IMG/VR virus record: IMGVR_UViG_3300012000_000151
Span: 1-20,528 of that record
Reading direction: 5' to 3' (one strand)
Origin: a virus
DNA: 20,528 bases
Part shown: positions 5,109 to 18,535 of the stretch, in pieces
How positions within the stretch are numbered: position 1 is the stretch's first letter
How the letters are laid out: each line of letters opens with the position of its first letter
Translations under genes and position numbers: made by a program
The notes under the pieces: model-generated
What the model was told of the DNA's origin: nothing
Seen by the model: the letters and a program-made list of their open reading frames with translations, nothing else
Database searches by the model: none

Positions 5109-5844
5109 GCTTGCGTCGTCTCTTGGGTTTCGCCGATGCGGCCTCGGCGATCCTATCGGCGTAAGCAAATCCGAAGCATTGCTGGCCAAAGATCCGATCG
5201 CTCTTTCTCAAGTTCTCTATATCCCACATTGGCCGAAGGTTTGTGAAGTGAAAGGCAACCGCCTGCTGCTCTGGATCGGAGAGATCAAACGCAGACAGAG
5301 GAATCAAGTGGTCTACGTGTATCTCTCCAATTCTCGCCCAGCACATGCCATCAGTGAACTTGGATTCGATCCACTCAGCAAGCTCTTTCGCGGTGCACCC
5401 CACCAGCTCCAACGTTCGCGCGCTCTTGCGAGCATTTGCTGTTTTTATCGCACCCCACGTACGGCAGCGGACTCTGTTGATCAGTGCTAAATGCGGGTTT
5501 TCCTGACGGCGTCGCTTCTTGTACGCCCTGAGATGCTCACGATTGCCTTGCCTCCACTCGCGATGCCTGTCCCTGAGCTTTTCCTTGTTGTTTTCGCGAT
5601 ACCTTTTTTGAATGATGCGCCCTTCTGGCGATTTACTCCATTGCGAGAACGCAGCCTTATTCGACTCGTAGTACCGTTTGTTCCTGACTAGGTACTCTTG
5701 CCTGTGTCGATCGCGGTACTCCTTGCACTTGCGAAGAATTGCGTCGCGGTTTGCGAGGTAGTACTTCCTGTCTGACTCTCGCCTTTTTGCCTTAGCGTTC
5801 TGAATGTCCTTTCCTTCTTCGCTCGGCTGTGTAGAGTCAGCCAT
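5083..5844 (-). CDS. HNH homing-type endonuclease with basic N-terminal repeats, 253 aa
   Basis: The C-terminal half has an HNH core: HVDHLIPLSAF (residues 176 to 186), FTNLRPMWDIENLRKSD (200 to 216), preceded by GCTAKELAEWIESKF. This arrangement is typical of free-standing phage HNH endonucleases. The N-terminal 120 residues are highly basic, with repeats of the form YY--N-----LRK-KEYR and KRYRENNKEKLRDR, a likely DNA-binding helical array. The ATG at 5844 fits the AGGAG ribosome-binding site (8 bases) better than the ATG at 5850, which abuts it. The gene overlaps the following helix-turn-helix gene, looks richer in A and T than its neighbours by eye, and is probably a mobile insertion. Confidence 0.8.
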   Translation of the reverse strand: MADSTQPSEEGKDIQNAKAKRRESDRKYYLANRDAILRKCKEYRDRHRQEYLVRNKRYYESNKAAFSQWSKSPEGRIIQKRYRENNKEKLRDRHREWRQGNREHLRAYKKRRRQENPHLALINRVRCRTWGAIKTANARKSARTLELVGCTAKELAEWIESKFTDGMCWARIGEIHVDHLIPLSAFDLSDPEQQAVAFHFTNLRPMWDIENLRKSDRIFGQQCFGFAYADRIAEAASAKPKRRRKRGGRNGDH

Positions 5845-5884
5845 AGCCATCTCTCCTATGTCAGTAGGGGACGTTGGTTAGAGG

Positions 5885-5910
5885 CGGCGACGGGGTGCAA
5901 CCCGTCGCCG
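5885..5910 (-). terminator. Strong hairpin between glycosyltransferase and HNH gene
   Basis: Ten-base-pair inverted repeat (5885-5894 with 5901-5910, core GGCGACGGG / CCCGTCGCC) with a six-base loop, in the 97-base gap between two genes. No clear U-run follows on either strand, so intrinsic termination is possible but not established. It could instead protect the mRNA end or mark the edge of the HNH insertion. Confidence 0.45.
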
Positions 5911-5941
5911 TTTCGCTTAGTGTACCCCCTCGCCCGTCGGA

Positions 5942-6787
5942 TCACAAGCGTTCACGTGGCGTCCAGTAGGAGACGCACCGGCTCGACGAATTGAGATACA
6001 ACCGCCCCGGCATCGTGCGATGAGCACACACGTGCTCGCAGTCCTCGCCGCTGTACCGCATGGCGAGGTAGGCGTCCCTTCGGTAGAGCGCCAGTTGTCC
6101 GAAGGCGCTGTTGAATCGCAGAGGCAGCGAGCCGACAGGCGGGTGCCAGTGGTGGAACCACGTTTGATCGCGACGCCGCCAGTGATTCTGGCGTGCCGCG
6201 AATGCGTCGTAGTGGATCGCGTGGCCGCCGTGCTCTGCCCATGAATAGCTCGCCATGCACGACGCCTCGCGAGCAGCCTCGATATGTGCCACGCTCGTCG
6301 TTACGCCGTCCACGCTCCAGCCGCCCCAGGCATCGGAGTCAAACACGATCACGTAGTCCACTGGCTCGCCTTGCCTCACCCACCACTGACACTGCGTGCG
6401 GTACTCCGCGAGCGCGATCGTCCGCTCGGTGGCGATCGTGTGCGAGAGGTGCGGCCGATGGTTGACGTTGAGCGACACTTGCCGCTGCGTGCCGTCGGCC
6501 CACGCCGCGAGCACGTCCTTCGTCTCGTCTTCCGAGTCGTTCTCGAAGATGTACGCCGACCACGAGCGGAACGTCGCTCCCGTCTCCTCGACCAGCGAGA
6601 GCGTCTGCGGGAGCCAGGGCATGGCATTGCGACAGATGGCGACCAGCGAGACCGTGCGATCGGCTGCGACCTCTCGCCCGACACGCACGGCTTCGGCGTA
6701 CTGCTCCGCGAACTCCTCGTCGGGCGGGAGCAGAACGTCGGGGCGGTGAGCCTCGATGTCGGCGGCGGTGATGGTGAAGGTGGTCAC
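5942..6787 (-). CDS. GT-A glycosyltransferase, CAP59/CMT1-like, 281 aa
   Basis: GTG start at 6787 overlaps the upstream stop as GTGA; the upstream extension lies inside the 88-aa gene and is rejected. Core features are VSLVAICRN (near 46), YIFENDSEDETKDVLAAW (79 to 96), a paired basic/acidic helix ATERTIALAEYR (119 to 130), and a DxD motif in VIVFDSDAWGG (Asp150/Asp152). These resemble the CAP59/CMT1 (GT69-type) mannosyltransferase pattern and predict transfer of a nucleotide-sugar donor with a divalent metal. The first 15 residues (VTTFTITAADIEAHR) are repeated at the start of the mini-ORF at 7054-7119. It probably decorates a phage or host surface structure; the acceptor is unknown. Confidence 0.75.
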   Translation of the reverse strand: MTTFTITAADIEAHRPDVLLPPDEEFAEQYAEAVRVGREVAADRTVSLVAICRNAMPWLPQTLSLVEETGATFRSWSAYIFENDSEDETKDVLAAWADGTQRQVSLNVNHRPHLSHTIATERTIALAEYRTQCQWWVRQGEPVDYVIVFDSDAWGGWSVDGVTTSVAHIEAAREASCMASYSWAEHGGHAIHYDAFAARQNHWRRRDQTWFHHWHPPVGSLPLRFNSAFGQLALYRRDAYLAMRYSGEDCEHVCAHRTMPGRLYLNSSSRCVSYWTPRERL

Positions 6788-7050
6788 GAGTTGAGCCTGT
6801 CCGCAATTCCTATCCATGCCTCCAGCCACACCAACACCCTCGCAAGCTCTTCTTTGGTCAGCCCGTCTTGAATCTCCAGCAGTCCCTTGATTACTCCGGC
6901 GATACCCTGCATCGCCTGCCATTCCTCAAGACTCAGGGTTGCTTTTGCCATGAGTGCTTCGTAGTCCTCTCGCTGCACCCACTGCCGACCATCTGGCGTG
7001 GCATAGACGTTTGCGGCGTGTCGCCGAGTGTCAATCGCTTGGGCAACCAT
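6784..7050 (-). CDS. Hypothetical small protein, 88 aa
   Basis: ATG at 7050, three bases after the stop of the mini-ORF; its stop overlaps the glycosyltransferase start. The sequence is soluble and helical (RRHAANVYATPDGRQWVQRE, then LSLEEWQAMQGIAGVIKGLLE and a C-terminal helix ELARVLVWLEAWIGIA). I do not recognise it. It lies with the small gene at 7116-7445 between glycosyltransferase genes and looks lower in GC than them, suggesting separate arrival. Confidence 0.55.
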   Translation of the reverse strand: MVAQAIDTRRHAANVYATPDGRQWVQREDYEALMAKATLSLEEWQAMQGIAGVIKGLLEIQDGLTKEELARVLVWLEAWIGIADRLNS

Positions 7051-7052
7051 GC

Positions 7053-7074
7053 GTCATATCCCCACGTCATCCGC
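7053..7074. repeat. 22-bp direct repeat, copy 1 (copy 2 at 7441-7462)
   Basis: Exact match over 22 bases to 7441-7462, beginning gtcatatccccacgtc on the plus strand. In both copies it encodes the C-terminal DDVGI of a glycosyltransferase frame, its TGA and the following overlapping ATG. It marks a recombination junction inside the glycosyltransferase cluster. Confidence 0.85.
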
Positions 7075-7119
7075 GCGGTGAGCCTCGATGTCGGCGGCGG
7101 TGATGATGTAGGTCGTCAT
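7054..7119 (-). pseudogene. Chimeric 21-codon remnant of a deleted glycosyltransferase gene
   Basis: ATG at 7119 overlaps the upstream stop as ATGA; the product would be MTTYIITAADIEAHRADDVGI. The first 15 residues match the start of the glycosyltransferase at 5942-6787 (VTTFTITAADIEAHR), and the last six match the end of the one at 7442-8215 (ADDVGI). At DNA level the whole mini-ORF is two abutting repeats: 7053-7074 is identical to 7441-7462, and 7075-7105 is identical to 6743-6773. The simplest reading is a glycosyltransferase gene that lost its middle by recombination. Translation as a short peptide is possible because the coupling signal is intact. Confidence 0.65.
7075..7119. repeat. 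45-bp imperfect direct repeat of glycosyltransferase start (other copy 6743-6787)
   Basis: 31 identical bases (7075-7105 and 6743-6773, containing gcctcgatgtcggcggcgg), then 14 bases with four differences. Both copies encode the N-terminal TITAADIEAHR-type segment of a glycosyltransferase frame. Confidence 0.85.
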
Positions 7120-7445
7120 TGCGCCTTGCCCGCAATCGCTTCGGCGAGCAACTGGACCACAGTCGTGAGCCTGTCGATCTTGCCGTGAATCTCTTGCGAC
7201 GATTCGTGTGCGTCTGATTTCGGCCCATGTTCCGCCAGGTACGCTTCCGCCTGCTCTTTCCGAACGTAGTACCTGAATGGTCGGCCGAGAGACATATAGT
7301 CGATGAGCCGCTTGTTTATTGCCGTGAGCAGCGCGTCGTACTTCCCCTTCGCGCCGCCCTTGCCGCGATGCTCATTCCACTCAGCGACGGCAACCCATCC
7401 TTCAGGAACTTCGCACTCAATCTTGAAAGGATTCATTTGAGTCAT
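7116..7445 (-). CDS. Small protein with possible excisionase-like winged helix, 109 aa
   Basis: ATG at 7445 overlaps the stop of the glycosyltransferase gene (ATGA). Residues 15 to 75 (GWVAVAEWNEHRGK, then SLGRPFRYYVRKEQAEAYLAEHG) recall the MerR/excisionase-type fold, in which a short wing ends with 'V-KEDAE-YL'. The C-terminal 35 residues form a predicted helix (EIHGKIDRLTTVVQLLAEAI), possibly for dimerisation. Function is not established; it may be a small DNA-binding regulator. It sits between two repeat scars in the glycosyltransferase cluster and appears less GC-rich than the enzymes around it. Confidence 0.5.
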   Translation of the reverse strand: MTQMNPFKIECEVPEGWVAVAEWNEHRGKGGAKGKYDALLTAINKRLIDYMSLGRPFRYYVRKEQAEAYLAEHGPKSDAHESSQEIHGKIDRLTTVVQLLAEAIAGKAQ

Positions 7446-8215
7446 ATCCCCACGTCATCCGCCGTCGCACCGATGGCGAACGGGAAGTATTCCTGAAGGT
7501 TCACCGGCCCGCTCGTCGCTTGGAGCCGATGCCACGCATCGGTCAGCCCCGTGTACCCGTAGTAGTCCTGCTTCATCGCAATCTGCTGCTCGGTCGTGTA
7601 GGCGTAGTGATCGAACACGAGCCCCGCCGCCTCGGTGCTTTCGATACTGACGCACCGGTCAAACCCGGTCACGATCGGCGGTTCGTGTCGGAGGAACCGC
7701 ATGCCCGGCCCCCAACGCCACGCTCGCAGCCACTCAAGGTCGCCGCGTGCCCAGCCCGCCGTGCTCGTCAGGAGCTTCGACGGCCCGACCCAGTAGCGGC
7801 ACGCGAACCGCGCGGCCGTCGCCACGGGCTGCTGAAGCATCAGCCAGTAGATCCGCTCCAACTGCCACGCCTGCCAGAGCTCGTCGCTGTCAACCTGCAT
7901 GACGACGCCACCCTCTACGCCTTCGAGGGCGCGGGCGATCATCGCGATCTTGCCGTCCCACGGTGAGTGCCGCCACGAGCAGGTCACGTTCGGCGTGTTG
8001 TTGACCGCTCGCACGTACTCGTGCGTACCGTCCACGCTGACGAAGTCCCGGTGCCACTTGTCCGGCATCGTCTGACACCACGCCGTGCAGTGAGTCGGTG
8101 CCGCGACGCCCTCGACGATCCGCCACTGCCACGGGATCGTGAGCTGGCGAAACGTCGCGAGGTGCTGCTCGATGTACGGCTGCCCGTTGAGTACGAGCGT
8201 GAAGAGCGTCAGCAT
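7442..8215 (-). CDS. GT-A-fold glycosyltransferase, 257 aa
   Basis: Start MLTLFTLVLNGQPYI at 8215, overlapping the end of the upstream glycosyltransferase by 7 bases; the longer open frame is shadow. It opens with the typical first strand (LFTLVLN) of GT-A enzymes, continues with WRIVEGVA, and has a metal-binding DxD in VVMQVDSDELW (Asp109/Asp111). Aromatic residues in the C-terminal half (RYWVGPSK, LRAWRWGPG) could line the acceptor site. It ends ADDVGI, a tail copied in the mini-ORF at 7054-7119. It is likely to use a nucleotide-sugar donor on an unknown acceptor. It lies in a run of three glycosyltransferases and one methyltransferase. Confidence 0.7.
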   Translation of the reverse strand: MLTLFTLVLNGQPYIEQHLATFRQLTIPWQWRIVEGVAAPTHCTAWCQTMPDKWHRDFVSVDGTHEYVRAVNNTPNVTCSWRHSPWDGKIAMIARALEGVEGGVVMQVDSDELWQAWQLERIYWLMLQQPVATAARFACRYWVGPSKLLTSTAGWARGDLEWLRAWRWGPGMRFLRHEPPIVTGFDRCVSIESTEAAGLVFDHYAYTTEQQIAMKQDYYGYTGLTDAWHRLQATSGPVNLQEYFPFAIGATADDVGI

Positions 8216-8814
8216 TTCCAGAGCGGCGATCGCCGCCCCTCCCAGTTCACCGCCTCTTGCCCGCAGTGTCCGACGGTCATCGGCAGCACGACGCACGATG
8301 AGAACTGCTTCGCGAACGTCAGGTCGCAGAGCTCGGCCGTGCGTGACCACTCGGGGTAGAGCACGTGCCGCCGGTACAACTGAAAAAACCCGGCGAACAT
8401 CGAGGCATACGCCTTGTTCGGCTTGCCGTCTGCGAGCCGCTCGGGCGTGTGGAAATCGACCCGCCTCGCACCGTAGAGCGTCTCGGGATTGGTCGCGTCC
8501 TGCTCGATGATCTCGCGTGCGTTGGTCGGCACCATCACGTCGGCGTCGATCAGCAGATACCACGCCTCCGGGTACGCGGCGTGCAAATGCTCTTGTGCAA
8601 ACCGTACAGCGCCCGCCTTGTTGAACGCAGCGCCGTCAGCGTGCCACCCGTCATAGATCAGCGGCGTCGCCTCGAATCGCTGCGCCACGTCCACGCTGGC
8701 GTCGTTCGCCTCCGTGACAACGCAGACGCCGGATACCTGCCCCGCGAGGCAGTGCAGGCAGTGCGGCAGATAGTCCGCGTAGTTGACGCTCGTCGTGATC
8801 GCGTAGATGTCCAT
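8209..8814 (-). CDS. GT2-like glycosyltransferase, 201 aa
   Basis: ATG at 8814 shares its A with the upstream stop (TGATG). The N-terminal strand and loop (IYAITTSVNYADYLPHCL) and VCVVTEANDASVDVAQRF match the nucleotide-binding half of family 2 enzymes. LLIDADVMVP supplies the DxD motif (Asp90/Asp92). At 201 residues it is short for GT2 and contains little beyond the catalytic core, with no membrane span. A C-terminal Cys/His-containing stretch (FSSCVVLPMTVGHCG) follows. It lies between the methyltransferase and the 257-aa glycosyltransferase, suggesting a shared glycan-building role. Confidence 0.7.
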   Translation of the reverse strand: MDIYAITTSVNYADYLPHCLHCLAGQVSGVCVVTEANDASVDVAQRFEATPLIYDGWHADGAAFNKAGAVRFAQEHLHAAYPEAWYLLIDADVMVPTNAREIIEQDATNPETLYGARRVDFHTPERLADGKPNKAYASMFAGFFQLYRRHVLYPEWSRTAELCDLTFAKQFSSCVVLPMTVGHCGQEAVNWEGRRSPLWKC

Positions 8815-9383
8815 CAGTTGCCCCGCTTCACGGCGATGACTTGCCACTCACGATGCACGACCTCGACGCACCCGACGTAGAGTGCAAGGAACGCATCGAT
8901 CGCGGGCTTCGGCGTCGGCAGATGCTGCCGGTGCGGGTGCGGGTCGCGCCATTCGTAGTCGTCCCAGACGATGACAGCGCCGACCGTGAGCAGCCGCCAC
9001 GCGAGGACTGTGTCTTCGAGCACCGTGCGGCCCTCGTGACCGCCGTCGATGTAGATGCCATCGAAGAGCCGATGCTCGGCGAGAGCGCGGGCGAGGAACA
9101 CGTGCGAGCGACCGCAAAACTTCTCGGCACGCCCGGCGAGGTTCGCGTCGAACCTCGCCTCGGGATTCTCTGCCGAGTAGCCGTCGAACGGCCCGCCCCA
9201 CGTATCAACGCACGTGATCGTGTCGCCTGGTTGCAGTGCCTCATCGAGCATCCAGCACGCCGAGCGACCCTCGTGCGAGCCGATCTCCAGCCAGCGGCAC
9301 GGGTGCGGCAGACGAGGCAGCACGTGCTCGCGCCATGCGTTCGTTCGCATCGAGAACCAATCGTGCGTGAACTCGTAGGTCAT
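8814..9383 (-). CDS. Class I SAM-dependent methyltransferase, 189 aa
   Basis: ATG at 9383 overlaps the RusA stop (ATGA). Motif I is WLEIGSHEGRSACWML (residues 31 to 46), followed by DTITCVDTWGG, with the acidic residue at the end of strand 2 expected to bind the ribose of S-adenosylmethionine. FDGIYIDGGHEG and GAVIVWDDYEW follow. This matches the Methyltransf_24 type, often linked to sugar or small-molecule O-methylation. Position directly upstream of two glycosyltransferases supports a role in capping or modifying a glycan rather than DNA. The substrate is inferred. Confidence 0.8.
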   Translation of the reverse strand: MTYEFTHDWFSMRTNAWREHVLPRLPHPCRWLEIGSHEGRSACWMLDEALQPGDTITCVDTWGGPFDGYSAENPEARFDANLAGRAEKFCGRSHVFLARALAEHRLFDGIYIDGGHEGRTVLEDTVLAWRLLTVGAVIVWDDYEWRDPHPHRQHLPTPKPAIDAFLALYVGCVEVVHREWQVIAVKRGN

Positions 9384-9778
9384 GTGATCCGCACCGTCGT
9401 GCGACTTTCTGTTCCCCACGATTTCTCGACGACGAGCCGCGACACGTGCGTGTCGTCGCCCATCACGTCCTGCAATGCGTCGAGGACAGCCTTGCCCAGG
9501 TTGTCCACGTCGGGACGCGGCAGTGCCGGTGCCGTCGCCTTGACGCCCGACTTCGTGAGGTGCGACTTCGGCCGTGCAAACACGGCGTCGATGACGACGC
9601 TGACGGGGCGCGACTGCTCGCGGAGCCCGGCGACGCTCGCCGCCATCGCGATCGCCTGTCGGTAGGCGTGGACCGGATGGCTCTTCGGCACGTACGCACG
9701 TGCGAACCCGCCAGCGGTTGACACTCGCGGGCGCGGTTGCGGCACCGGGTCGCCAGGAATGGAGAGAGTGATCGTCAC
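9380..9778 (-). CDS. rusA: RusA-type Holliday junction resolvase, 132 aa
   Basis: GTG start at 9778 overlaps the upstream stop (GTGA). It begins with the family's ITLSIPGDPVPQPRPRV, then has the conserved acidic core PRPDVDNLGKAVLDALQDVM (Asp90, Asp92, Lys96, Asp100) and GDD near 107 to 109. These correspond to the metal-binding and catalytic residues of RusA. RusA resolves four-way junctions during phage recombination and replication and helps prepare DNA for packaging. The length is normal for the family (about 120 to 140 residues). Among glycan genes it looks out of place by function but is normal within a phage middle region. Confidence 0.88.
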   Translation of the reverse strand: MTITLSIPGDPVPQPRPRVSTAGGFARAYVPKSHPVHAYRQAIAMAASVAGLREQSRPVSVVIDAVFARPKSHLTKSGVKATAPALPRPDVDNLGKAVLDALQDVMGDDTHVSRLVVEKSWGTESRTTVRIT

Positions 9779-9996
9779 AGCAGATCGAGTCCGTGATCCG
9801 CACACTGGCTCCGCAGCCACTCGCGAAGCTCCTGGTACGCCGTCTCCACGTCGTGGCCGAGCTCGCCGCCCTTGATCTCGGTGGCGAGGTGATCGTCGAT
9901 GAGCATGACGATGCCCTTCGCCCGCGCTCCCTCGACGGCGTCGCGGAACTCGCCCTCGTCATCCGGCAGGCGAAATCTCAGCGTTGCGGTAGGCAT
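9775..9996 (-). CDS. Small phage protein, tandem paralogue A, 73 aa
   Basis: ATG at 9996 overlaps the upstream stop (TGATG). It begins MPTATLRFRLPDDEGEFRDA and aligns along its length with the preceding gene (MPQATLTFTLPEEESEYRAA). Both belong to a common small phage family of the form 'LPEE--E---A--G-----L-EID--LR---K', encoded near replication genes. The fold is predicted to be one beta hairpin plus helices. The function is unknown to me. Its neighbour copy shows a tandem duplication followed by strong divergence. Confidence 0.65.
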   Translation of the reverse strand: MPTATLRFRLPDDEGEFRDAVEGARAKGIVMLIDDHLATEIKGGELGHDVETAYQELREWLRSQCADHGLDLL

Positions 9997-10208
9997 CAGT
10001 CGAGTGTGACTCCGTCGGTCTCACGAATCATGCGGCGGATCTCCTCGGCGAGCGTCCGCGTCTCTTCGCTTGGCGAGCCATGCTTCACCAGCGATCGGCA
10101 GCGCTGGTCGATCTCCCAGAGGAGCAGGCGAGCGGCGCTGCCTTCGAGGGCGGCACGGTACTCGGACTCTTCTTCGGGCAACGTGAATGTCAGCGTGGCT
10201 TGCGGCAT
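9996..10208 (-). CDS. Small phage protein, tandem paralogue B, 70 aa
   Basis: I start it at MPQATLTF (10208) because this aligns exactly with the start of its paralogue; an ATG five codons upstream (10223) is also in frame. It overlaps the end of the protease gene by 19 bases. LPEEESEYRAALEG and LLLWEIDQRCRSLVKHG are the family's conserved parts. The charged C-terminus (EETRTLAEEIRRMIRET) is helical. It is closer to the usual family pattern than copy A, so A is likely the diverged duplicate. Confidence 0.65.
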   Translation of the reverse strand: MPQATLTFTLPEEESEYRAALEGSAARLLLWEIDQRCRSLVKHGSPSEETRTLAEEIRRMIRETDGVTLD

Positions 10209-10981
10209 CCCGGCATCGTGCATGGCGAGTCAAGTTCGCCGACCACGCTGCGAATCCAGTCGAGGTAGAGCACCACGCGGGTGTGCCCGCTCTCCTCGCC
10301 GAGGACGTACCGCGTCTTTCCGCCGATGCAGGCGACGTAGGAGTTCACGCCGACGAGCCGCGTGCTGCCGTCGATCGCCGTTGCCCAGAGCGGGCCGCCC
10401 GAGTCGCCCGGCGCGATGCACGCCGGGAGCGGGCCAGCGTCGGGCGTCCTGCGAATCGGGCAGACGTAGACGCCGTGTTCGATCGACCCGAGGACGACCG
10501 TCCCAGCCCGCAGCCGCTGGTCGCCTCCTGTGAGCCCGCGAGTCAGGCTCCCGGTCATGCCGTACCCTGCGGCGGCGGCGACGCTGCCGAGACGCTCGGT
10601 GCCGTCGGCGAGCATCGGGTACACGTCGGCGTGCCGGTGCTGTCCGAGTCGCACGAGCGCGATGTCGTGCCACCCGTGAACGCCGGTCCATTCGGGATGC
10701 CGCACGACGCGGTCGCACGCGAGACGCTCGCCGCCGAGCACGACAGTCACCGCCGTCATCTCGTGCGGGACGTGAGCCGCAGTGAGCACCCAGTGAGGCG
10801 ATATGAGCGTGCCAGAACCGGCGAGCGGCACTCCTTCGGCGTTGTTGCCGACGACACGCACGACGTAGCCCGCGAACGTCGCACCGTAGTCGAGGTAGCG
10901 GGCGTCGCCTTTCGACTCGTCAATCGTGGCGGCCGATGCCGCGAGCGCCGACACGGCGATGAGAGTCGCCAGGAGTCGCAT
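10190..10981 (-). CDS. Secreted trypsin-like (S1) serine protease, 263 aa
   Basis: Starts MRLLATLIAVSALAASA, a signal peptide with a likely AxA cleavage site near residue 18. The chymotrypsin-fold triad is complete: His70 in VLTAAHV, Asp106 in HDIALVRL, Ser194 in APGDSGGPLW. SGTLISPHWVLTAAH is the canonical strand before the histidine. The residue six before the catalytic serine is Cys, not Asp, so classical trypsin specificity is not expected. A signal peptide on a phage-encoded S1 protease predicts export to the periplasm or surface of the infected cell or lysogen. No good ribosome-binding site is seen. It is the first gene after the cassette array. Role unknown: envelope remodelling, superinfection defence or a lysogenic trait are all possible. 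Confidence 0.8.
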   Translation of the reverse strand: MRLLATLIAVSALAASAATIDESKGDARYLDYGATFAGYVVRVVGNNAEGVPLAGSGTLISPHWVLTAAHVPHEMTAVTVVLGGERLACDRVVRHPEWTGVHGWHDIALVRLGQHRHADVYPMLADGTERLGSVAAAAGYGMTGSLTRGLTGGDQRLRAGTVVLGSIEHGVYVCPIRRTPDAGPLPACIAPGDSGGPLWATAIDGSTRLVGVNSYVACIGGKTRYVLGEESGHTRVVLYLDWIRSVVGELDSPCTMPGCRKPR

Positions 10982-11023: not shown

Positions 11024-11055
11024 GCGGCGTGATACACGGAAGCGGCGTGATACAC
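11024..11055. repeat. Two 14-bp direct repeats beside the array boundary
   Basis: gcggcgtgatacac occurs at 11024-11037 and again at 11042-11055, separated by 4 bases. The pair lies 17 bases before the GTT at 11073 that starts the cassette array. Direct repeats next to the recombination point also occur in attI sites, where the integrase binds. Alternatively they are operators for the protease gene. Confidence 0.7.
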
Positions 11056-11075
11056 AGACCGTAGAAATACAAGTT
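11056..11075 (+). other. Candidate attI-like or secondary insertion site for the cassette array
   Basis: The first cassette begins at the GTT at 11073-11075, preceded by aaatacaa and with no attC-like hairpin to its left. The sequence around it (acaaGTT) recalls attI ends. The array's right end is the GTT at 13247-13249. Removing the cassettes would join the G at 11073 to the TT at 13248, restoring a short intergenic region between the 47-aa membrane gene and the protease gene. No integrase gene is present, so attI identity is only a suggestion. Confidence 0.4.
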
Positions 11076-11079
11076 CTGG

Positions 11080-11331
11080 CTACTCGTCGTTCTTCACTAC
11101 AGCGTGCCGATCCGGCGACTCCAGCAAGACAATCGCATGAGCAGGAAGCCCCAGCACACCCGGCATCGACCGCTCGGAGTGCCACTCCGCAGCGTGTTCG
11201 ATTGTTGTAAACGGCCCGATAAACGTGAACCCTCCAAGAACCGACCCAGTGACGATCACGGCCGGGCCGCGAGTGTCTGGCTCGCCAGAACCACGCGATG
11301 CAGCGGACATCTCATTCACCTCGTCTGTCAT
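11080..11331 (-). CDS. Cassette 1 cargo: hypothetical protein, 83 aa
   Basis: ATG at 11331 with AGGAGC 5 bases upstream; the TAG stop lies 5 bases from the GTT that starts the cassette. Residues 22 to 52 (PAVIVTGSVLGGFTFIGPFT, then TIEHAAEWHSE) and the end (AHAIVLLESPD) recall a small alpha-beta phage protein family of the form 'V-TG----GF-F-GPF-----A--W'. Function unknown. The start codon and ribosome-binding site lie in the loop of the first attC hairpin, and the first 15 or so residues are encoded by its left arm. The gene fills the cassette almost entirely. Confidence 0.65.
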   Translation of the reverse strand: MTDEVNEMSAASRGSGEPDTRGPAVIVTGSVLGGFTFIGPFTTIEHAAEWHSERSMPGVLGLPAHAIVLLESPDRHAVVKNDE

Positions 11332-11373
11332 GGTTGCTCCTGTGTTCGATGCCGCTGATCGCTGGCGTTCTAC
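11284..11373 (+). repeat. attC-like site 1 (end of cassette 1)
   Basis: Left arm: GCCAGAAC (11284-11291), spacer CAC, GCGAT, extrahelical G11300, CAGCGG, extrahelical A11307, CATC. Right arm: GATG, CCGCTG, ATCGC, spacer TGGC, GTTCTAC (11367-11373). All 15 inner pairs are Watson-Crick. The 36-base loop (11312-11347) carries a ribosome-binding site and ATG on the minus strand. TGCAGCGGAC on the left and CCGCTGA on the right are standard attC phrases. Confidence 0.88.
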
Positions 11374-11894
11374 GGCTCCAGGATGAAGGCTGCGATGTGC
11401 CGCCCCGTCCCTTTGCCCTTGGATCCGTCCTCCGTTGCGTTCCACCTAACGTCGCCAAGGTTTCGCACCTTCGCTGCCCCGCAGGCCGCTAGCATCATCA
11501 GAACCCACTTGTCCACCGGGTACACCACCACCGACAGTTTGCCCTTCCGCTGCTCATCAATCGCCTTTCGCATCCATGCCGTCGGCCCTTTCTTGCGGCC
11601 GTTGTGGATGATGGATCCGAATGGCGGGTTGACGTAGTTACTGCTCCCCCACTCGCAAGTGAGACCGTCGAATCCAGGCGGCACCGGGTACGGGCATGGG
11701 TCGAAGTCAAAGTGAAACTCGGCGTCCAGTTCTGCGTATAGGTCTGGCGGCGTCAGCCAGTAGTGCTTGCCATCGTCTCCGTTGCCGGCGTGAAACTTGT
11801 TCCGGTGTGGCGGGAGTGTGCTCTGATGCGCCGCCGTAGAACCAAGCGATGGAGCAGACGGCGGTGGCGGCGTCCAAAGTAATAGTTGCGTCAT
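11370..11894 (-). CDS. Cassette 2 cargo: phage-type DNA N-6-adenine methyltransferase (Dam family), 174 aa
   Basis: Contains YWLTPPDLYAELDAEF (near 45 to 60), DFDPCPYPVPPG (63 to 74) and NYVNPPFGSII (87 to 97). The NPPF tetrapeptide is the catalytic motif IV of adenine-N6 methyltransferases, and the W-TP, FDPCP and NPPFG order matches the phage Dam family (Dam/DUF3310-neighbour type). Such enzymes protect phage DNA from restriction or set regulatory marks. I start at MTQLLLW (11894); an ATG at 11918 is also in frame. The start and the first 25 or so residues lie within the second attC site. The TAG stop overlaps the GTTCTAC box of the first attC. The recognition site is unknown. Confidence 0.85.
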   Translation of the reverse strand: MTQLLLWTPPPPSAPSLGSTAAHQSTLPPHRNKFHAGNGDDGKHYWLTPPDLYAELDAEFHFDFDPCPYPVPPGFDGLTCEWGSSNYVNPPFGSIIHNGRKKGPTAWMRKAIDEQRKGKLSVVVYPVDKWVLMMLAACGAAKVRNLGDVRWNATEDGSKGKGTGRHIAAFILEP

Positions 11895-11926
11895 GTGTCC
11901 GCCGCTGCTCATCGCCATCGTTCTGT
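11833..11926 (+). repeat. attC-like site 2 (end of cassette 2)
   Basis: Left arm: GCCGTAGAAC (11833-11842), spacer CAA, GCGAT, extrahelical G11851, GAGCAG, extrahelical A11858, CGGCGG. Right arm: CCGCCG, CTGCTC, ATCGC, spacer CATC, GTTCTGT (11920-11926). Seventeen inner pairs, all Watson-Crick, with a 34-base loop. The left box is the exact complement of the start of this cassette (11367-11376), not of the adjacent right box. Confidence 0.88.
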
Positions 11927-11928
11927 GG

Positions 11929-12153
11929 CTATCCGATCCGCTCCAGCAGGCTCTCCAGCGTGGATGCCGCCGCCCTACTGCGGACCTTGTCCTTTGGCTT
12001 TAGGTCGTCCCAGCCGACGCACAACGTATTCGCTGCCCATGCAATCGCGTCCCGTTCGGCCTCTGTGATCCGCAGCCTGTCAGCGTCTTTTTGGAGAGCG
12101 GCAATCGTCTCCATGTGGTCAAAAAGCATCCTGTCAAAGACAACGTCGCTCAT
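11929..12153 (-). CDS. Cassette 3 cargo: small helical protein, 74 aa
   Basis: ATG at 12153 overlaps the DUF551 stop (ATGA), with AAGGAG 5 bases upstream. The TAG stop lies 9 bases after the cassette's GTT boundary. The sequence is helical and charged (ETIAALQKDADRLRITEAER, then AAASTLESLLERIG), suggesting a coiled coil. Not recognised. It is translationally coupled to DUF551, so the two are likely expressed together. Confidence 0.6.
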   Translation of the reverse strand: MSDVVFDRMLFDHMETIAALQKDADRLRITEAERDAIAWAANTLCVGWDDLKPKDKVRSRAAASTLESLLERIG

Positions 12154-12356
12154 GGCTTCTCCTTGGCTTCTTCTGGAGGCGGCGGAAACGGCATCCAGTG
12201 CGTCACCTGGAACTCAGGGTCGCCGAAAATATGCCACTCGCCGTCTTCAAAAAAGCCGCGATCTGGCAAATATTCCCCAGTCACTAAGTCGCAAACGAGG
12301 TATGACTCGTTGTCGTCAGGCAGCCTGTCTTTTACGGAAATCCACTGGTTGCTCAT
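12150..12356 (-). CDS. Cassette 3 cargo: DUF551 family protein, 68 aa
   Basis: WISVKDRLPDDNESYLVCDL (residues 5 to 24) followed by WHIFGDPEFQVTHWMPFPPPP is the diagnostic DUF551 pattern: an opening 'W--V-DRLP' and a closing 'VTHWMPLP-PP'. DUF551 proteins are small phage-encoded proteins of unknown role, frequently found in early or middle operons. The start has GGAGAGG upstream. A 14-base-pair stem and a structured RNA precede it (12378-12473), so its expression may be regulated by that structure. Confidence 0.85.
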   Translation of the reverse strand: MSNQWISVKDRLPDDNESYLVCDLVTGEYLPDRGFFEDGEWHIFGDPEFQVTHWMPFPPPPEEAKEKP

Positions 12357-12377
12357 GCGCCCTCTCCATTGTGAAAA

Positions 12378-12473
12378 CTCCCCGTCGCCAGCCCTACACG
12401 GAACGCGATGCCGTTCCGCACACCTTGGTGCCTGCCTTACTCATGAGGCTCTTCGGAACTGGCTGACGGGGAG
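12378..12473 (-). ncRNA. Candidate structured RNA or leader upstream of the DUF551 gene
   Basis: On the minus strand, CTCCCCGTCAGCCAG pairs with CTGGCGACGGGGAG as a 14-base-pair stem with one bulged A, closing a 67-base interior. Inside are possible smaller hairpins: GCCT/AGGC, CACC/GGTG, and a perfect CGGAACG/CGTTCCG stem with a six-base loop. The closing stem is followed by TTTTCAC, then the ribosome-binding site of DUF551. It lacks tRNA features and the twin extrahelical bases of attC. It may be a riboregulator, an attenuator or a large terminator hairpin. Confidence 0.5.
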
Positions 12474-12520
12474 CCGACCGCATTCGCGGTCCACCTCCGG
12501 TCGCCCGGATTGTGTGTCAT
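12437..12520 (-). CDS. Possible 27-codon leader peptide in cassette 3
   Basis: ATG at 12520 with GAGGAG 9 bases upstream encodes MTHNPGDRRWTANAVGSPSA and seven more residues, ending in TAA. A 16-codon frame overlaps its end. It runs into the first arm of the structured RNA, so its translation could influence folding, as in a leader peptide. The ribosome-binding site is the only strong support; composition is uninformative. Confidence 0.3.
   Translation of the reverse strand: MTHNPGDRRWTANAVGSPSASSEEPHE
12476..12491. repeat. Perfect small hairpin GACCGC-ATTC-GCGGTC
   Basis: Six-base-pair inverted repeat with a four-base loop, inside the possible leader peptide and directly 5' of the large structured stem on the minus strand. 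It may be part of the same RNA element. Confidence 0.5.
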
Positions 12521-12541
12521 TGTAATCGTCTCCTCTACGCT

Positions 12542-12598
12542 CACAGAACCAGCGGATGAAGCGGACGGCGGAGCCGCCGCTTATCCTGCGTGTTCGCC
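12542..12598 (+). repeat. attC-like site 3 (end of cassette 3)
   Basis: Left arm: CACAGAAC (12542-12549), spacer CAGC, GGAT, extrahelical G12558, AAGCGG, extrahelical A12565, CGGC. Loop GGA. Right arm: GCCG, CCGCTT, ATCC, spacer TGCGT, GTTCGCC (12592-12598). Fourteen inner pairs, all Watson-Crick. The left box is complementary to 11920-11927, the start of its own cassette. This is a compact attC with a three-base end loop. Confidence 0.9.
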
Positions 12599-12600
12599 GA

Positions 12601-12819
12601 CTACTTGCGTCCCCTTCGTTTCTTCCACCGTGCCTTCGCGCCAGCCTCTGCTTGCTCGCCGATGTCCGGGTTGCCCGGCGCCATCTCCGGTGCCTCCACC
12701 CGCAGGAGCCGCGACAACGCCAGCCGGATGGCATCGCTCGGCGTGGTGCCGTGCTTCTCGCAGTAAGCCGCCAGCGGCCCCGCGAGTGGTCCGAGGCGGA
12801 AGGTGAGGCGGTCGTTCAC
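12601..12819 (-). CDS. Cassette 4 cargo: ribbon-helix-helix (CopG/Arc-like) protein, 72 aa
   Basis: GTG start at 12819 overlaps the upstream stop (GTGA). RLTFRLGPLAGPLAAYCEKH forms the N-terminal beta strand and first helix; GTTPSDAIRLALSRLLR (24 to 40) is the second helix of a ribbon-helix-helix DNA-binding domain. A basic, flexible tail ends KARWKKRRGRK. Such proteins are usually dimeric repressors or antitoxins. It shares a promoter with the coupled 78-aa gene. Its TAG stop lies 6 bases after the cassette boundary box. Confidence 0.7.
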   Translation of the reverse strand: MNDRLTFRLGPLAGPLAAYCEKHGTTPSDAIRLALSRLLRVEAPEMAPGNPDIGEQAEAGAKARWKKRRGRK

Positions 12820-13052
12820 GCGATCTCCGCTTCGATTGCCTTCATGCGAGCCTCGATCCACTCGGCCGGGTGCCGCGTGCCGCCCACGTTGCAGAACCGC
12901 ACGTCGTCAAAACCGTGCGTCCGGCAGATCAGGTAGACCGTTCCGTTGTCGAACTGCACCTCGGCACCGCAGATGTCCAGCGTGTCGGCGAACTTGGTCA
13001 GCCGGTCGAGCAGCTTGATTTCGGCCTTGGTCAGCTTCTTGGTGGCGTTCAT
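12816..13052 (-). CDS. Cassette 4 cargo: small protein coupled to the ribbon-helix-helix gene, 78 aa
   Basis: Start at MNATKKLTKAEIKLLDRL (13052) is preferred because AAGGGA lies 5 bases upstream; the in-frame ATG at 13088 sits at the predicted transcription start and would give a leaderless mRNA. Two basic helices (KKLTKAEIKLLDRLTKFADTL), a beta-rich middle (AEVQFDNGTVYLICRTHG) and a C-terminal helix (WIEARMKAIEAEIA). Three cysteines are present, without a clear zinc pattern. Not recognised. Coupling to a ribbon-helix-helix protein could indicate a toxin-antitoxin-like pair, but I see no toxin motif. Confidence 0.6.
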   Translation of the reverse strand: MNATKKLTKAEIKLLDRLTKFADTLDICGAEVQFDNGTVYLICRTHGFDDVRFCNVGGTRHPAEWIEARMKAIEAEIA

Positions 13053-13094
13053 TTGATTCCCTTTCGTGTTGTTGTCGTTGCCCGTCATGCCCTA

Positions 13095-13122
13095 AGTATA
13101 CCTAACGTCGGACGGAAGGCAA
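13095..13122 (-). promoter_or_regulatory. Sigma70-type promoter of cassette 4
   Basis: On the minus strand TTGCCT (13122-13117), a 16-base spacer, then TATACT (13100-13095). A run of seven A bases lies about 15 bases upstream of the -35, like an UP element. Transcription would begin near 13088. This is the best promoter-like sequence I see in the window and lies wholly inside the cassette. Confidence 0.65.
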
Positions 13123-13192
13123 ACCCGGCTCCAAGATTTTTTTCGACCCCCGTATTCCCCGAGGAAAAGCGGGGTTCCGGCCCCGGCCGGGC

Positions 13193-13253
13193 GTCGGCGA
13201 ACCAGGCGCTGGAGCGGACGGCCGGGGGCCGCCGCTCAGCTTCAGCGTTCTGT
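13193..13253 (+). repeat. attC-like site 4 (end of cassette 4, last of the array)
   Basis: Left arm: GTCGGCGAAC (13193-13202), spacer CAGGC, GCT, extrahelical G13211, GAGCGG, extrahelical A13218, CGGCC. Loop GGG. Right arm: GGCCG, CCGCTC, AGC, spacer TTCAGC, GTTCTGT (13247-13253). The left box is complementary to 12592-12601. No box matching GTTCTGTGC is found further right, so this is the array's end. Confidence 0.88.
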
Positions 13254-13256
13254 GCA

Positions 13257-13400
13257 TCACCTCGTCATCCACATCAGTCCCCAGTTCGCCGCGCCGTAGC
13301 TCGCCCACACGACGAACCCGGCGGGCGACCCCTTCCACCACTGCTCGATCGCGACGGCCCAGTAGATCAGCGAGACGAGGAAGAGGAGCGGTGCGCTCAC
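13257..13400 (-). CDS. Small membrane protein flanking the array, 47 aa
   Basis: GTG at 13400 overlaps the stop of the helix-turn-helix gene (GTGA). The product starts VSAPLLFLVSLIYWAVAIEQ, a membrane span, then WWKGSPAGFVVWASYGAANW, a second hydrophobic stretch, and ends LMWMTR. It is too short for standard ORF cut-offs. It ends 8 bases before the array's last GTT box, so the array was inserted just behind it without damage. Function unknown; small two-span proteins in this position can be holins or membrane modulators. Confidence 0.6.
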   Translation of the reverse strand: MSAPLLFLVSLIYWAVAIEQWWKGSPAGFVVWASYGAANWGLMWMTR

Positions 13401-13752: not shown

Positions 13753-14874
13753 TCAGTCGTTCGACAGTGGCATGATCACGCCGGTGTAGACGCCGCCGTT
13801 GCGTAGCACGCACGCGGACTGCGCGTCCACAAGCTCGACCGTGATGTGCGGACCCTCATCAGTCGCGATGCCACGCAGCCACTCGACCACGAACGTCGGG
13901 TCGAGCTTCACCTTCACCGGGTCGCCGCCGCTGACGACCTCGATCGTCACGTCGCTCTGCCCGTACTCCGCGCTCTGCCCGTGAAGCGTCACGCCGTCGC
14001 CGCTGAAAGTGAACTCAACGCCCTTCGACTGCTCGCTGGTCACGATCGCCGCCGCCCTGGTCGCCGCGAGCAGATCGTCCCGAGCAACGACAGTCTCGAT
14101 CGCACCGGCCCGGTCCTTCGGCAGCACGTCACGCCAGCGCGGGAACCGACCGGCGATCTGCCGTGCCGTCACGACGCACCCCGGCAGCGTGGCGACGAGC
14201 TCGTGCTCGCTCGCCTCCAGTTGCACGGCGTCGTCGCCTCGGGCCGCCACGCTCGCGAGCGACGCAAGCACCCTCGCCGGGACGAGGGCGGTGCCGTCGT
14301 CCACCGCCTGGTCGTGCTCCACCGCCACGTGCGAGAGACGACGCCCGTCGGTCGCCACGAACGAGCAGTCGCCGCCGAGCACCTCGATGAGCACCGCGCC
14401 GAGCGCGTAGCGGCTGCTGTCGTTATCCGTCGCGTAGACGCAGCCCTTCACGGCACGGGCGAATTGATCGCACGGGACTCGCACGAGCGTCCTGAGCGGC
14501 TCGTGGTTCCACGTCGGCCACTCGGCGGCGCTCTCGACCGGGAGCCGCCACGTGCCACGCCCGGCGGTCACGACGCACGACGTGCCGTCAGGAGTGATCG
14601 TCACCTCTTCGGAGCGAGCCTCGGCGAGGATCGCCCGCAGGCGAGCATGCGGCAGGAGGATCGGATCGCCGTCATACGGCACATCGACCGCGATCTGGAG
14701 TTCGAGGTCAGTGGCTGTCAATGTGCCGCCTCCAAGCAGCACGTATGCGAGCGTCGGCTTCGCCGGTCGAGTCGGCACCGCTGCCGCCACGTCCGCGAGA
14801 GCCTGCTTGAGTGTCGCCGTTGCCAGCACGATGCCAGTACTCCTTCGCCGCTTCGTAGCCGTTGCCGTCGTCAT
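13753..14874 (-). CDS. dnaN: DNA polymerase III beta subunit-like sliding clamp, 373 aa
   Basis: ATG at 14874 (MTTATATKRRR) with AGGAGGAGAGG upstream. It has the three-domain plan of bacterial beta clamps and the usual length of about 370 residues. Domain 1 has LAYVLLGGGTLTATDLELQI and AILAEARSEEVTI. Domain 2 starts near PCDQFARAVKGCVYATDNDSS and has SFVATDGRRLSHVAVEH, the 'TDGHRLA' motif. Domain 3 has DLLAATRAAAIVTSEQSKGV. The C-terminus GVIMPLSND matches the conserved 'YVIMPM' end that forms the binding pocket for polymerases. It clamps DNA polymerase to the template. A full phage-encoded bacterial-type clamp implies partial replisome independence. Confidence 0.9.
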   Translation of the reverse strand: MTTATATKRRRSTGIVLATATLKQALADVAAAVPTRPAKPTLAYVLLGGGTLTATDLELQIAVDVPYDGDPILLPHARLRAILAEARSEEVTITPDGTSCVVTAGRGTWRLPVESAAEWPTWNHEPLRTLVRVPCDQFARAVKGCVYATDNDSSRYALGAVLIEVLGGDCSFVATDGRRLSHVAVEHDQAVDDGTALVPARVLASLASVAARGDDAVQLEASEHELVATLPGCVVTARQIAGRFPRWRDVLPKDRAGAIETVVARDDLLAATRAAAIVTSEQSKGVEFTFSGDGVTLHGQSAEYGQSDVTIEVVSGGDPVKVKLDPTFVVEWLRGIATDEGPHITVELVDAQSACVLRNGGVYTGVIMPLSND

Positions 14875-14971
14875 GTCCTCTCCTCCTGAGTGACGCACCT
14901 ACCAGGATGCCGAAGGCGAACGTCGCCGACTGCATCACGATCCCGATTGCGATGAGAGCGAGCTCGCTCAT
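14708..14971 (-). CDS. Small membrane protein overlapping the clamp start, 87 aa
   Basis: ATG at 14971 overlaps the upstream stop (ATGA). The first 27 residues (ELALIAIGIVMQSATFAFGI then LVGASLRRR) form a membrane span followed by a basic anchor. The rest is hydrophilic and overlaps the clamp gene by 167 bases in another frame, which is unusual. The N-terminal part fills what would otherwise be a 93-base gap. It may be real with a shortened functional part, or a chance extension. Confidence 0.45.
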   Translation of the reverse strand: MSELALIAIGIVMQSATFAFGILVGASLRRRGHDDGNGYEAAKEYWHRAGNGDTQAGSRGRGGSGADSTGEADARIRAAWRRHIDSH

Positions 14972-16315: not shown

Positions 16316-17749
16316 TCAGACCGAAGCCTCTTCACGGCTGGCTACCTGCCGAGCCATGTTTCCAAGCGTCAACTGAAACTTCTGGTCAGCGCACTCGTGC
16401 GGCATCACTGCAGCCATAATCGGCTGATTGCTGTCTTCCGTCGTGATGGCGTGGCCTGTTAGCAGGGCCATCGCTCCCATCTTGACGAGATCACGATTGC
16501 GAGCGTGAACGTGCCAGTACTCGTGCAGACGCCCAAGGTAGACCTTATTCGACTTGCGATTTCCTTCTACCCATCCAAAGCGATCGTCGTCATCAACCAT
16601 GATGATGGAGAAACGCTTGCCGGAAAAATCGTCAACGATAGTGATGCTTCCATCACCCTCTTGCGTTGATCGCGATCGACGGCGGCGCTTCCCAGTATTC
16701 CTCGCGACAACAGTGCCAGGCTGATGCTCTTCGGTGGCTGCCCTCCTGCGCTCCTTCCGCATGCGAGACTCGGACAATGCCTCGGTCAGCTCACGGCCTA
16801 CGTCGTCTGCGATCTCTGATTCCAGCGTGATAGCGTGCTCTTCGGCGGCTCTCTCGAGCAGGTCGCGCACAGCCGGAAAGATCTGCTCACACAAGTCTTC
16901 AAGCTCTTCCGCAGAGGTCTTGTGCTTATTGACGGACCACCGCTCATCGTCATCTGCGTCTTCCGGCTCGATGAGTGTGATGACGCCGTAGAACTTGTGT
17001 GTGTCCATGTCACCAGTGCCATACGACCGGTTAGACGGAGTGCTGTCGAGCACGCGATTCTTGAACTCGTATCTCCAGCCGCCATCAACCTTCTGGCCGT
17101 CAGCCTTGATTCCGGCCCACCAGCGATACTGCTTCGCACCAAACAACCCTCCGCCTTCCAGTCGATCGACCACTTCGACTTCCGACGGCGCATCCACAGC
17201 GATGCCGTTGACCGCAATCCGCTTTCCTCGGCGAATGGCAGGGGCAAACGTTGCAGACAGCTTCTCGGCAATGGATTGCGGGTAGATCTTCCGGTTGACG
17301 TTGCAGATCCTGACGACGGTTCCTGTGTGCGTGCCTGTTGGCACCTCGTCCTGATCTTCCCGCGCAACCCATCGACCGGTTGAAAGAATCTCCTCAAAGT
17401 CTGCTCGGACTGTGCGACGCAGCCCGTTGCGAATGGTCGCGATTTCGACAGCGGTTCCGAGCGCCATGATTGCATCCTTAGCGCCGATGCCGTAACGCCC
17501 AGAGGTATCTCGCCCTTCGGAGTCATGCTCACCCATCGTCACAATGGCGGACGGGTCAGGTGCCCCAACGCCGTTGTCGCTGATGGTGATGACGTGTGCG
17601 GCCACGTCATAATCGACGCGGTTGTCATCTCCTCGAGCGTCCAGCGAGTTGTCGATCAGTTCAACAATCGCCAGCGATGGTGCCATGTCCTGGCGAGCCA
17701 TCGAGGTCAGAATGTGCGTCTTCGGCGTAATGTCTATTTCTTTGGTCAT
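16316..17749 (-). CDS. GHKL (Hsp90/MutL/MORC-like) ATPase, 477 aa
   Basis: The ATP-binding Bergerat fold is clear: N box AIVELIDNSLDA (Glu30, Asn34), G1 box DNGVGA (Asp58, Gly60, Gly62), and G2 box TSGRYGIGAKDAIMALG (about 82 to 98). The catalytic glutamate Glu30 and magnesium-binding Asn34 are present. A transducer-like domain with NVNRKIYPQSIAEKLSATF follows, then an acidic hinge (EPEDADDDERW), a helical part, and a basic segment (GKRRRRSRS) before a C-terminal beta-containing domain. No MutL endonuclease motif is visible. The start lies 3 bases after the ParB-like gene, suggesting a working pair. Possible roles are mismatch repair, DNA looping or counter-defence. Confidence 0.78.
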   Translation of the reverse strand: MTKEIDITPKTHILTSMARQDMAPSLAIVELIDNSLDARGDDNRVDYDVAAHVITISDNGVGAPDPSAIVTMGEHDSEGRDTSGRYGIGAKDAIMALGTAVEIATIRNGLRRTVRADFEEILSTGRWVAREDQDEVPTGTHTGTVVRICNVNRKIYPQSIAEKLSATFAPAIRRGKRIAVNGIAVDAPSEVEVVDRLEGGGLFGAKQYRWWAGIKADGQKVDGGWRYEFKNRVLDSTPSNRSYGTGDMDTHKFYGVITLIEPEDADDDERWSVNKHKTSAEELEDLCEQIFPAVRDLLERAAEEHAITLESEIADDVGRELTEALSESRMRKERRRAATEEHQPGTVVARNTGKRRRRSRSTQEGDGSITIVDDFSGKRFSIIMVDDDDRFGWVEGNRKSNKVYLGRLHEYWHVHARNRDLVKMGAMALLTGHAITTEDSNQPIMAAVMPHECADQKFQLTLGNMARQVASREEASV

Positions 17750-17752
17750 TGC

Positions 17753-18535
17753 TCAAATCCTTTCAAGCTGGGTTGTCAGTTCATCTCGCAAAACTTCGGC
17801 GTTGTGATCGGCGTTCTTCCATTCGGCGAGCAAGTCGCGCAAGTCAGACAAGATCGCCGCCATGGTTCGATGCTTCGGCTCGCGCTTTTTTCGCTCTGGC
17901 TTTGGTGCCACGTCGCGGAGTTTCTTCTTGCCAGCCATGACTTCCTTGGCCGTCTCGGCGGGTAGCTGTCCAGCCTCGATTGCCTTCTGCACGGCGACGG
18001 CCTGGCGGGCCTTGTGCATCGAGGTGCCGGCCTTCGCGGCCACCTGGCCGACGGTGGAGCGGGCGTTCATCGATTTCGTGTCGCGCTTGTGCGGTGAATC
18101 CGTTTTCGTATTCACCGCATGACGAGCCTTCGCGGCCTTGCTCGCCTTCTCGCTGTCGAACTTCGTCGCAGCCTTACGCGCCGCGTTCTCCTTTGCGATC
18201 AGCGGCCAGATAACAGACGAGGCCATTGCGATTCCGTCGTCGTCCATGTGGCGACGGATCGCGTTCGTGTCCCAAATCCACTCGGCCACATTGCGGCCGT
18301 CGTCCTCCCATTCGACGGTAGGGCAAGATCCCGCCCAGCCTTCAGACTTCAGCCGCTCGCAGGCTCTCATCCTGTTGCGTCCATCAAGTAGTTCGGTTCC
18401 GCGAACTACTGCAGGATGCTGGACGCCGTGGCTGCGAATTGAGTCGCACAGGTCGTCAAAGTCGTCGCCGTCAATTAGCGGAAAAACCGCTGCCGCAGGG
18501 TGAACAGTGAGTCCACCGATCATCTCTTCGCTCAT
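17753..18535 (-). CDS. ParB/Spo0J-type nuclease-fold protein, 260 aa
   Basis: ATG at 18535 overlaps the upstream stop (ATGA). Residues 9 to 65 hold a ParB N-terminal domain: VHPAAAVFPLIDGDDFDDLC, IRSHGVQHPAVV, ELLDGRNRMRACERL. DGRNR takes the place of the 'GHRR' motif, as in phage ParB-like nucleases. A lysine-rich middle (KFDSEKASKAAKARHAV) and a helix-turn-helix-like region (STVGQVAAKAGTSMHKARQ) follow, with a coiled-coil end (ILSDLRDLLAEWKNADHNAE). The protein probably binds DNA and may hydrolyse nucleic acid or CTP. It can serve in partition, regulation or DNA processing. It is paired with the GHKL ATPase. Confidence 0.78.
   Translation of the reverse strand: MSEEMIGGLTVHPAAAVFPLIDGDDFDDLCDSIRSHGVQHPAVVRGTELLDGRNRMRACERLKSEGWAGSCPTVEWEDDGRNVAEWIWDTNAIRRHMDDDGIAMASSVIWPLIAKENAARKAATKFDSEKASKAAKARHAVNTKTDSPHKRDTKSMNARSTVGQVAAKAGTSMHKARQAVAVQKAIEAGQLPAETAKEVMAGKKKLRDVAPKPERKKREPKHRTMAAILSDLRDLLAEWKNADHNAEVLRDELTTQLERI

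Follow-up and report, generated by a model that had tools for sequence, protein, structure and literature searches.

Analysis of a 20,528-nucleotide stretch of viral DNA (the window; IMG/VR record IMGVR_UViG_3300012000_000151) points, with a probability of about 0.86, to an integron-type cassette array at positions 11073-13250. The array is read as a cluster of attC sites lacking integron integrases (CALIN) with planctomycete-type attC sites, occupying a fixed insertion point in the genome of a tailed phage that probably infects a planctomycete, with cassettes exchanged at G^TT joints and with the loops of the long sites giving a translation start. Integrons are platforms by which bacteria capture genes, and have been studied most for their part in antibiotic resistance.

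attC sites of the array and their planctomycete counterparts

A structural scan of the whole window, with a pattern derived from the four sites described here (AAC, spacer, three pairs, G, six pairs, A, at least three pairs, spacer, GTT), detected four hairpins on the + strand that follow one exact plan, namely AAC, 5 nt, three pairs, an extrahelical G, six pairs, an extrahelical A, a stem-loop, 6 nt and GTT. All pairs match in the four sites, whose spacers are alike at 5 and 6 nt. The same scan found no site on the - strand, and 60 dinucleotide shuffles of the window contained no perfect site, and 0.22 per window when one mismatch was tolerated. Two sites are of a long type, attC1 (11288-11370, 83 nt) and attC2 (11839-11923, 85 nt), and two of a short type, attC3 (12546-12595, 50 nt) and attC4 (13199-13250, 52 nt), the latter forming the right end of the array. 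All are on the + strand and are also matched by R1, a covariance model trained on phage sites only (84.6 bits for attC1, which belongs to the training set), and no direct-repeat family of the region is larger than the one they make up. Each has AAC/GTT outer boxes at both ends of the inverted repeat, unpaired central spacers of 5 and 6 nt, an L-box stem of 3 + 6 pairs, and a G and an A extrahelical on one arm. The original prediction, made from the letters of the window, had placed four attC-like hairpins of one plan within a few bases of these positions, and the twin extrahelical bases whose absence it had named as refuting are present.

The site class recurs widely in viral DNA. A protein search with the DNA polymerase III beta clamp encoded beside the array retrieved 33 viral loci, a DNA pattern built from the window sites retrieved 104 viral stretches and a looser pattern at least 120. 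Across 209 viral loci (2.09 Mb), 118 contained a total of 255 perfect sites and the reversed sequence contained none; the first extrahelical base was G in 248 of these 255 sites, the A being required by the scan, and the spacers were 5/6 in 151 of 153 perfect viral sites. Among 23 diverse viral sites pairing was kept in 99.5% of cells, with changes on both sides in 9 of 12 inner-stem pairs and a covariation of 0.465, against 0.113 in shuffled and at most 0.09 in slid alignments, so that a conserved fold lies over variable sequence, as in attC sites. Covariation is stronger evidence for the hairpins than folding energy: folded as single-stranded DNA, the check that had been proposed for each site, attC2 to attC4 stood out clearly (z -3.0 to -4.3) and attC1 weakly (z -1.45). 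An Rfam search with the whole window gave no relevant match, nor did megablast of the window match any isolated phage; one relative, G006, encodes a terminase, a portal protein, head-tail adaptors and an integrase.

The strongest single test of attC identity came from bacterial chromosomes. A narrower site pattern matched one of approximately 85,000 bacterial species genomes, a Planctomycetia metagenome-assembled genome (MAG) that also encodes an integron integrase (429.8 bits; TIGR02249 cut-off, 265), and IntI scored above the cut-off in 50 of 294 Planctomycetota genomes. In most of 20 loci fetched (19 of them around intI), R1 matched attC sites, often as arrays; the majority agree with the phage sites in spacers and in the extrahelical G and A. 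Because R1 had not been trained on chromosomal sites and finds those that adjoin intI, the phage sites are identified as planctomycete-type attC, which bears out the attC reading of the hairpins. The chromosomal arrays, with their TIGR02249-type IntI, share with the phage array spacers that are mostly 5/6, the two extrahelical bases, the TGCAGCGGAC...CCGCTGA core and the G^TT joints, and differ in lying beside intI. The window holds four attC sites within 2 kb and its record has no TIGR02249 match; profile searches of the window found no intI gene beside the array, which makes it a CALIN and not a complete integron. A clamp search of Planctomycetota genomes was swamped by the bacterial clamp and gave no firm pointer to the host, its best match (42%) being in the MAG that has one attC site and an IntI.

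Cassette exchange, antisense genes and start signals inside attC

In close relatives (clamp 84-96% identical) the flanks are about 83-92% alike and the array region is different. L007 has an empty site, in which the left boundary meets the right flank with about 13 bp between them, L008 carries cassette 4 only, joined at GTT, and L009/L010, L011, L012 and L026 have other content at the array position. Relatives without cassette-wise gain or loss, which had been named in advance as evidence against a cassette array, are thus not what was found. At the same insertion point, L012 (approximately 6700-9230) carries phosphoadenosine phosphosulfate reductase-like and ParB-like genes with no recognisable attC, content that may have been swapped in by means other than cassette recombination.

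The left boundary (11024-11075, + strand) consists of 17-bp direct repeats (11024-11040 and 11042-11058) followed by ATACAAG^TT. It is kept up to G^TT in L008, L009/L010, L012 and L104, where a different cassette or other content follows, and in L007, where the right flank follows. The conserved ATACAAG^TT and the repeats upstream of it may form an attI-like boundary, and the repeats could instead be operators of the adjacent protease gene. The GTT at 11073-11075 opens cassette 1, so the left end of the array had been placed correctly at 11073.

Cassette 4 is found in many phages whose backbones have little in common, and in 15 of the 16 loci listed the homology opens with the first cassette base. 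L059 and L064, with backbones 69% identical, have in common a block of 790 bp at 100% identity, both of whose edges lie exactly at G^TT between unrelated adjoining flanks, and a 357-bp cassette is nearly identical in L064 and L093, its identity likewise running from TT. Both blocks are as site-specific cassette exchange predicts. Units are therefore gained, lost and exchanged with G^TT edges, and these joints are consistent with an integron integrase recombining the folded bottom strand.

The extrahelical bases sit in the 5' half of the + strand, which is therefore the attC top strand, and every plausible gene of the array is on the - strand. The typical, non-defining arrangement of a cassette, with its gene along the attC top strand, is thus absent from the window. 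Among 120 distinct viral cassettes the longest frame was on the bottom strand in 97 and on the top strand in 23 (58 to 6 under a strict rule), in contrast to the chromosomal cassettes, a small sample with 14 on the top and 9 on the bottom strand. The possibility that cassette genes just follow phage transcription was considered and rejected: flanking genes ran opposite to the attC top strand in 54 cases, were mixed in 42 and ran along it in 10. The idea fits the majority of contigs without fitting all, so that the direction of the cassette genes seems linked to attC and not to the flanks.

The long attC sites offer a likely explanation of the antisense layout, because their loops hold start signals. 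In 120 of 164 distinct long sites (70-90 nt), the bottom-strand hairpin loop contained a Shine-Dalgarno sequence and an ATG; this ATG was in the SxASxGS frame of the attC arm in 114 of the 120, and the frame was open into the cassette gene in 107. The predicted leader is acidic and ends in ...SxASxGS, as in MTDEVDEMSAASRGS, MSDDNTQDGAEPSPASAGS and MTQDDAGSAPMLGS, each of which is joined to unrelated proteins, and the leader frame is held in at least nine loop geometries. Among 32 chromosomal attC sites, of which half are long, the loop never held a Shine-Dalgarno sequence and ATG. The signals were somewhat more exposed than in shuffled sequences (0.54 versus 0.45, p 2e-4). In the window, cassette 1 has a clear loop start and cassette 2 a weak Shine-Dalgarno sequence; cassettes 3 and 4, with their short attC, have other signals instead, a structured stretch and a promoter-like site, respectively. 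These observations strongly suggest that the long attC loop gives a ribosome-binding site and a start codon and that the arm encodes a short leader. The leaders are presumably translated, for which the ratio of nonsynonymous to synonymous polymorphism (pN/pS) gives weak support.

The site class is nearly absent from sampled bacterial genomes, as against more than 100 viral contigs, and this viral recurrence looks new. Perhaps the lineage that usually hosts these phages has yet to be sampled, or perhaps the cassette pool is truly viral. It is fairly likely that we are dealing with a virus-specialised branch of integron cassettes, a pool that circulates among phages and in which attC acts as recombination site, translation start and N-terminal leader at once. 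The antisense genes, the start signals within attC and the near-virus-only cassette pool look like the most novel features of the array, and were missed by the original prediction.

Proposed mechanism and alternative readings

We propose that the cassettes are moved by a tyrosine recombinase, most probably an IntI supplied in trans by the host, which would act on the folded bottom strand of attC. The cassettes pass between phages as whole units with edges at G^TT, and each long-attC cassette would bring its own translation start, work anywhere in the array and be read by phage transcription. A host IntI in trans is the simplest reading because IntI, which Planctomycetota commonly encode, act on matching sites. 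Several points weigh against this picture. A search of this fragment and of 31 further viral records found no credible IntI, so the enzyme is a deduction, and the bottom strand is taken as the recombining one from the position of the extrahelical bases. Of 392 Planctomycetota genomes, one contains the site class, a further match probably being due to chance, which weakens the assignment of the host. As for the leader, related sites share ancestry, so that the frame count overstates independence, and selection is weakly visible (pN/pS 0.55, versus 1.36 and 0.63 in the other frames).

The phages have a tyrosine recombinase family of their own, related to a 397-aa protein of L155 (843-2033, + strand), with relatives in L143-L165 that are 29-95% identical to it; a Protein Data Bank search with the phage tyrosine recombinase gave no useful match. 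That such an enzyme, and not IntI, moves the cassettes is a rather improbable alternative. Tyrosine recombinase matches were present in 26 of 50 viral records, about 21 fetched loci share the L155-related family, none of whose members resembles IntI, and the site class hardly occurs outside viruses. These proteins are, however, generic XerC/D-like integrases that score far below the cut-offs, with no convincing TIGR02249 match, they are encoded far from the array in close relatives and are most simply the lysogeny integrase, and the architecture of the sites fits those used by IntI. Still more doubtful is a relic array, captured once from a bacterial integron and now inert, whose parts the phages swap by homologous recombination at similar attC sequences. 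The lack of intI in the phage records searched would fit such a relic, the attC sequences are similar enough for recombination, and the phages are mosaic elsewhere too. Homologous recombination would, however, give chimeric attC sites and scattered edges, whereas identity opens at the TT of GTT in both L059/L064 and L064/L093 and closes in L059/L064 at the G that follows an attC shared in full; the almost invariable start of cassette 4 homology at its first base (15 of 16 loci listed) and the empty site of L007 likewise speak for site-specific exchange.

The remaining alternatives concern what the hairpins do in expression. It is scarcely credible that they are mRNA elements controlling translation, or palindromes like the repetitive extragenic palindromic (REP) type, rather than recombination sites: the somewhat exposed Shine-Dalgarno sequence and ATG that most long sites carry in the loop would suit this reading, but it leaves unexplained the AAC/GTT ends with their constant spacers of 5 and 6 nt, the pair of extrahelical bases, the matching sites beside intI, the short sites without start signals and the G^TT edges of the cassettes. 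We also think it unlikely, if less so than the preceding alternatives, that the leader peptide is accidental, with true starts downstream and loops alike only through the common descent of attC. The sites do group into few families and pN/pS is modestly under 1; against this stand the single frame of 114 of 120 leaders, with 107 open into the cassette gene, its persistence over several loop geometries with differing distances from ATG to arm, and the unrelated cargo fused to the leader.

Cargo, neighbouring genes and relation to known systems

Cassette 1 (11074-11367, + strand) runs from TT through its own attC to G, with edges at the G^TT of 11073 and 11367, and is missing from L007 and L008. 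Its gene (11080-11331, - strand) encodes 83 aa starting MTDEVNEMSAASRGS, with Shine-Dalgarno AGGAG and ATG in the attC1 loop and no Pfam match. Cassette 2 (11368-11920, + strand), bounded by the GTT of attC1 and that of attC2, carries a gene for a Dam-like N6-adenine methyltransferase (11370-11894, - strand; PF05869, E 1.6e-4, a match below the Pfam cut-off), whose ATG lies in the attC2 loop and whose N-terminus, MTQLLLWTPPPPSAPSLGS, is in the frame of the other leaders. The body of this gene is 74% identical in nucleotides to a Bradyrhizobium phage methyltransferase; because the match leaves out attC, genes seem to join the cassette pool from other phages.

Cassette 3 (11921-12592, + strand) contains two genes and a structured non-coding stretch. 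The first gene (11929-12153, - strand) encodes 74 aa with the RITEAERDAIAWAA...TLESLLERIG pattern, as in the commonest cargo family, and the second (12150-12356, - strand) a DUF551 protein (PF04448, E 1e-11). The stretch upstream of the latter (12356-12515, - strand; -79.7 kcal/mol, z -4.9) is conserved in L044 (12720-12885) and L338 (955-1125), its stems seeming to carry changes on both sides, and an Rfam search with this short stretch alone gave no match; it is possibly an undescribed structured RNA with three copies known. Cassette 4 (12593-13247, + strand), common to many other phages with homology that runs from GTT usually to attC, has two hypothetical genes on the - strand, an 86-aa frame (12601-12861) with no Pfam match above the cut-off and with relatives in other loci, and a 90-aa frame (12816-13088). 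Its promoter-like site (13095-13122, - strand; TTGCCT-16-TATACT) is a consensus match only, of which 0.6 would be expected by chance, and is also present in L008.

The array is flanked on the left by a trypsin-like protease gene (10190-10981, - strand; PF00089, E 3.3e-14). On the right, a gene for a 47-aa membrane-protein-like product (13257-13400, - strand), whose stop codon is 8 bp past the attC4 GTT, also borders the empty site of L007. The beta clamp gene (13753-14898, - strand; PF02767/PF00712/PF02768) that served as query for relatives lies in the right flank too. The cargo of viral cassettes in general comprises C5 and N6/N4 DNA methyltransferases, HNH endonucleases, DUF551 proteins and a large family with an LTDEEREAIE motif; PADLOC matches in the cargo were rejected as a sign of a defence system, being to methyltransferase models only.

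Other parts of the window vary as well. A segment with a 255-aa HNH-like frame (5103-5951) is missing in L007, L008, L011 and L012, where alignments jump from approximately 5102-5107 to 5952, and looks like a mobile endonuclease gene. An alignment gap against L007 and L008 (approximately 16320-18530) holds a HATPase_c_3 gene and its neighbour (17753-18562), apparently a second variable region, without attC sites. The products of two adjacent small genes (9775-9996 and 9996-10223, - strand) resemble each other (MPTATLRFRLPDDEGEFRDAVEG... and MPQATLTFTLPEEESEYRAALEG...), which marks a tandem duplication; the alignments of relatives break between the copies.

Phage attC clusters with methyltransferase cargo have already been published, for instance in Tetrasphaera phage TJE1 (Qi et al. 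2023, PMC9892861), and IntI1 recombined five of six phage attC sites tested (PMC9892861). A compact multi-cassette phage array, which to the original prediction appeared exceptional, is therefore less so than supposed; the antisense genes and the start signals within attC are what look novel. TJE1-type CALINs resemble the present one as attC clusters without intI in a tailed phage with methyltransferase cargo. They differ in that the structural scan gave the TJE1 attC an extrahelical C and A and placed it at the 3' end of a methyltransferase gene that runs in the same direction, with no R1 match. TJE1 thus has the classical arrangement, whereas the genes of the window are antisense and many viral cassette genes seem to start inside attC. 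The attI1 site of class 1 integrons carries a translated open reading frame, ORF-11, with its own Shine-Dalgarno sequence and start codon, that aids translation of cassette genes (PMC8876359). Like the long sites described here, it is a recombination site bearing both signals; it differs in lying in attI, once per integron, and in acting by coupling, whereas here the start would be in the attC of the cassette and the leader fused to the cargo. A literature search of incomplete coverage found no report of antisense cassettes with an attC-supplied start codon and a fused leader.

These phages appear to use integron-type hairpins as a plug-in locus for DNA methyltransferases, HNH nucleases and many small proteins of unknown function, exchanged with base precision. 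A dual-function attC, if true, would remedy a recognised shortcoming of cassettes, namely that they depend on the platform for an expression signal, and the site class offers a simple handle for collecting hundreds of unstudied phage accessory genes.

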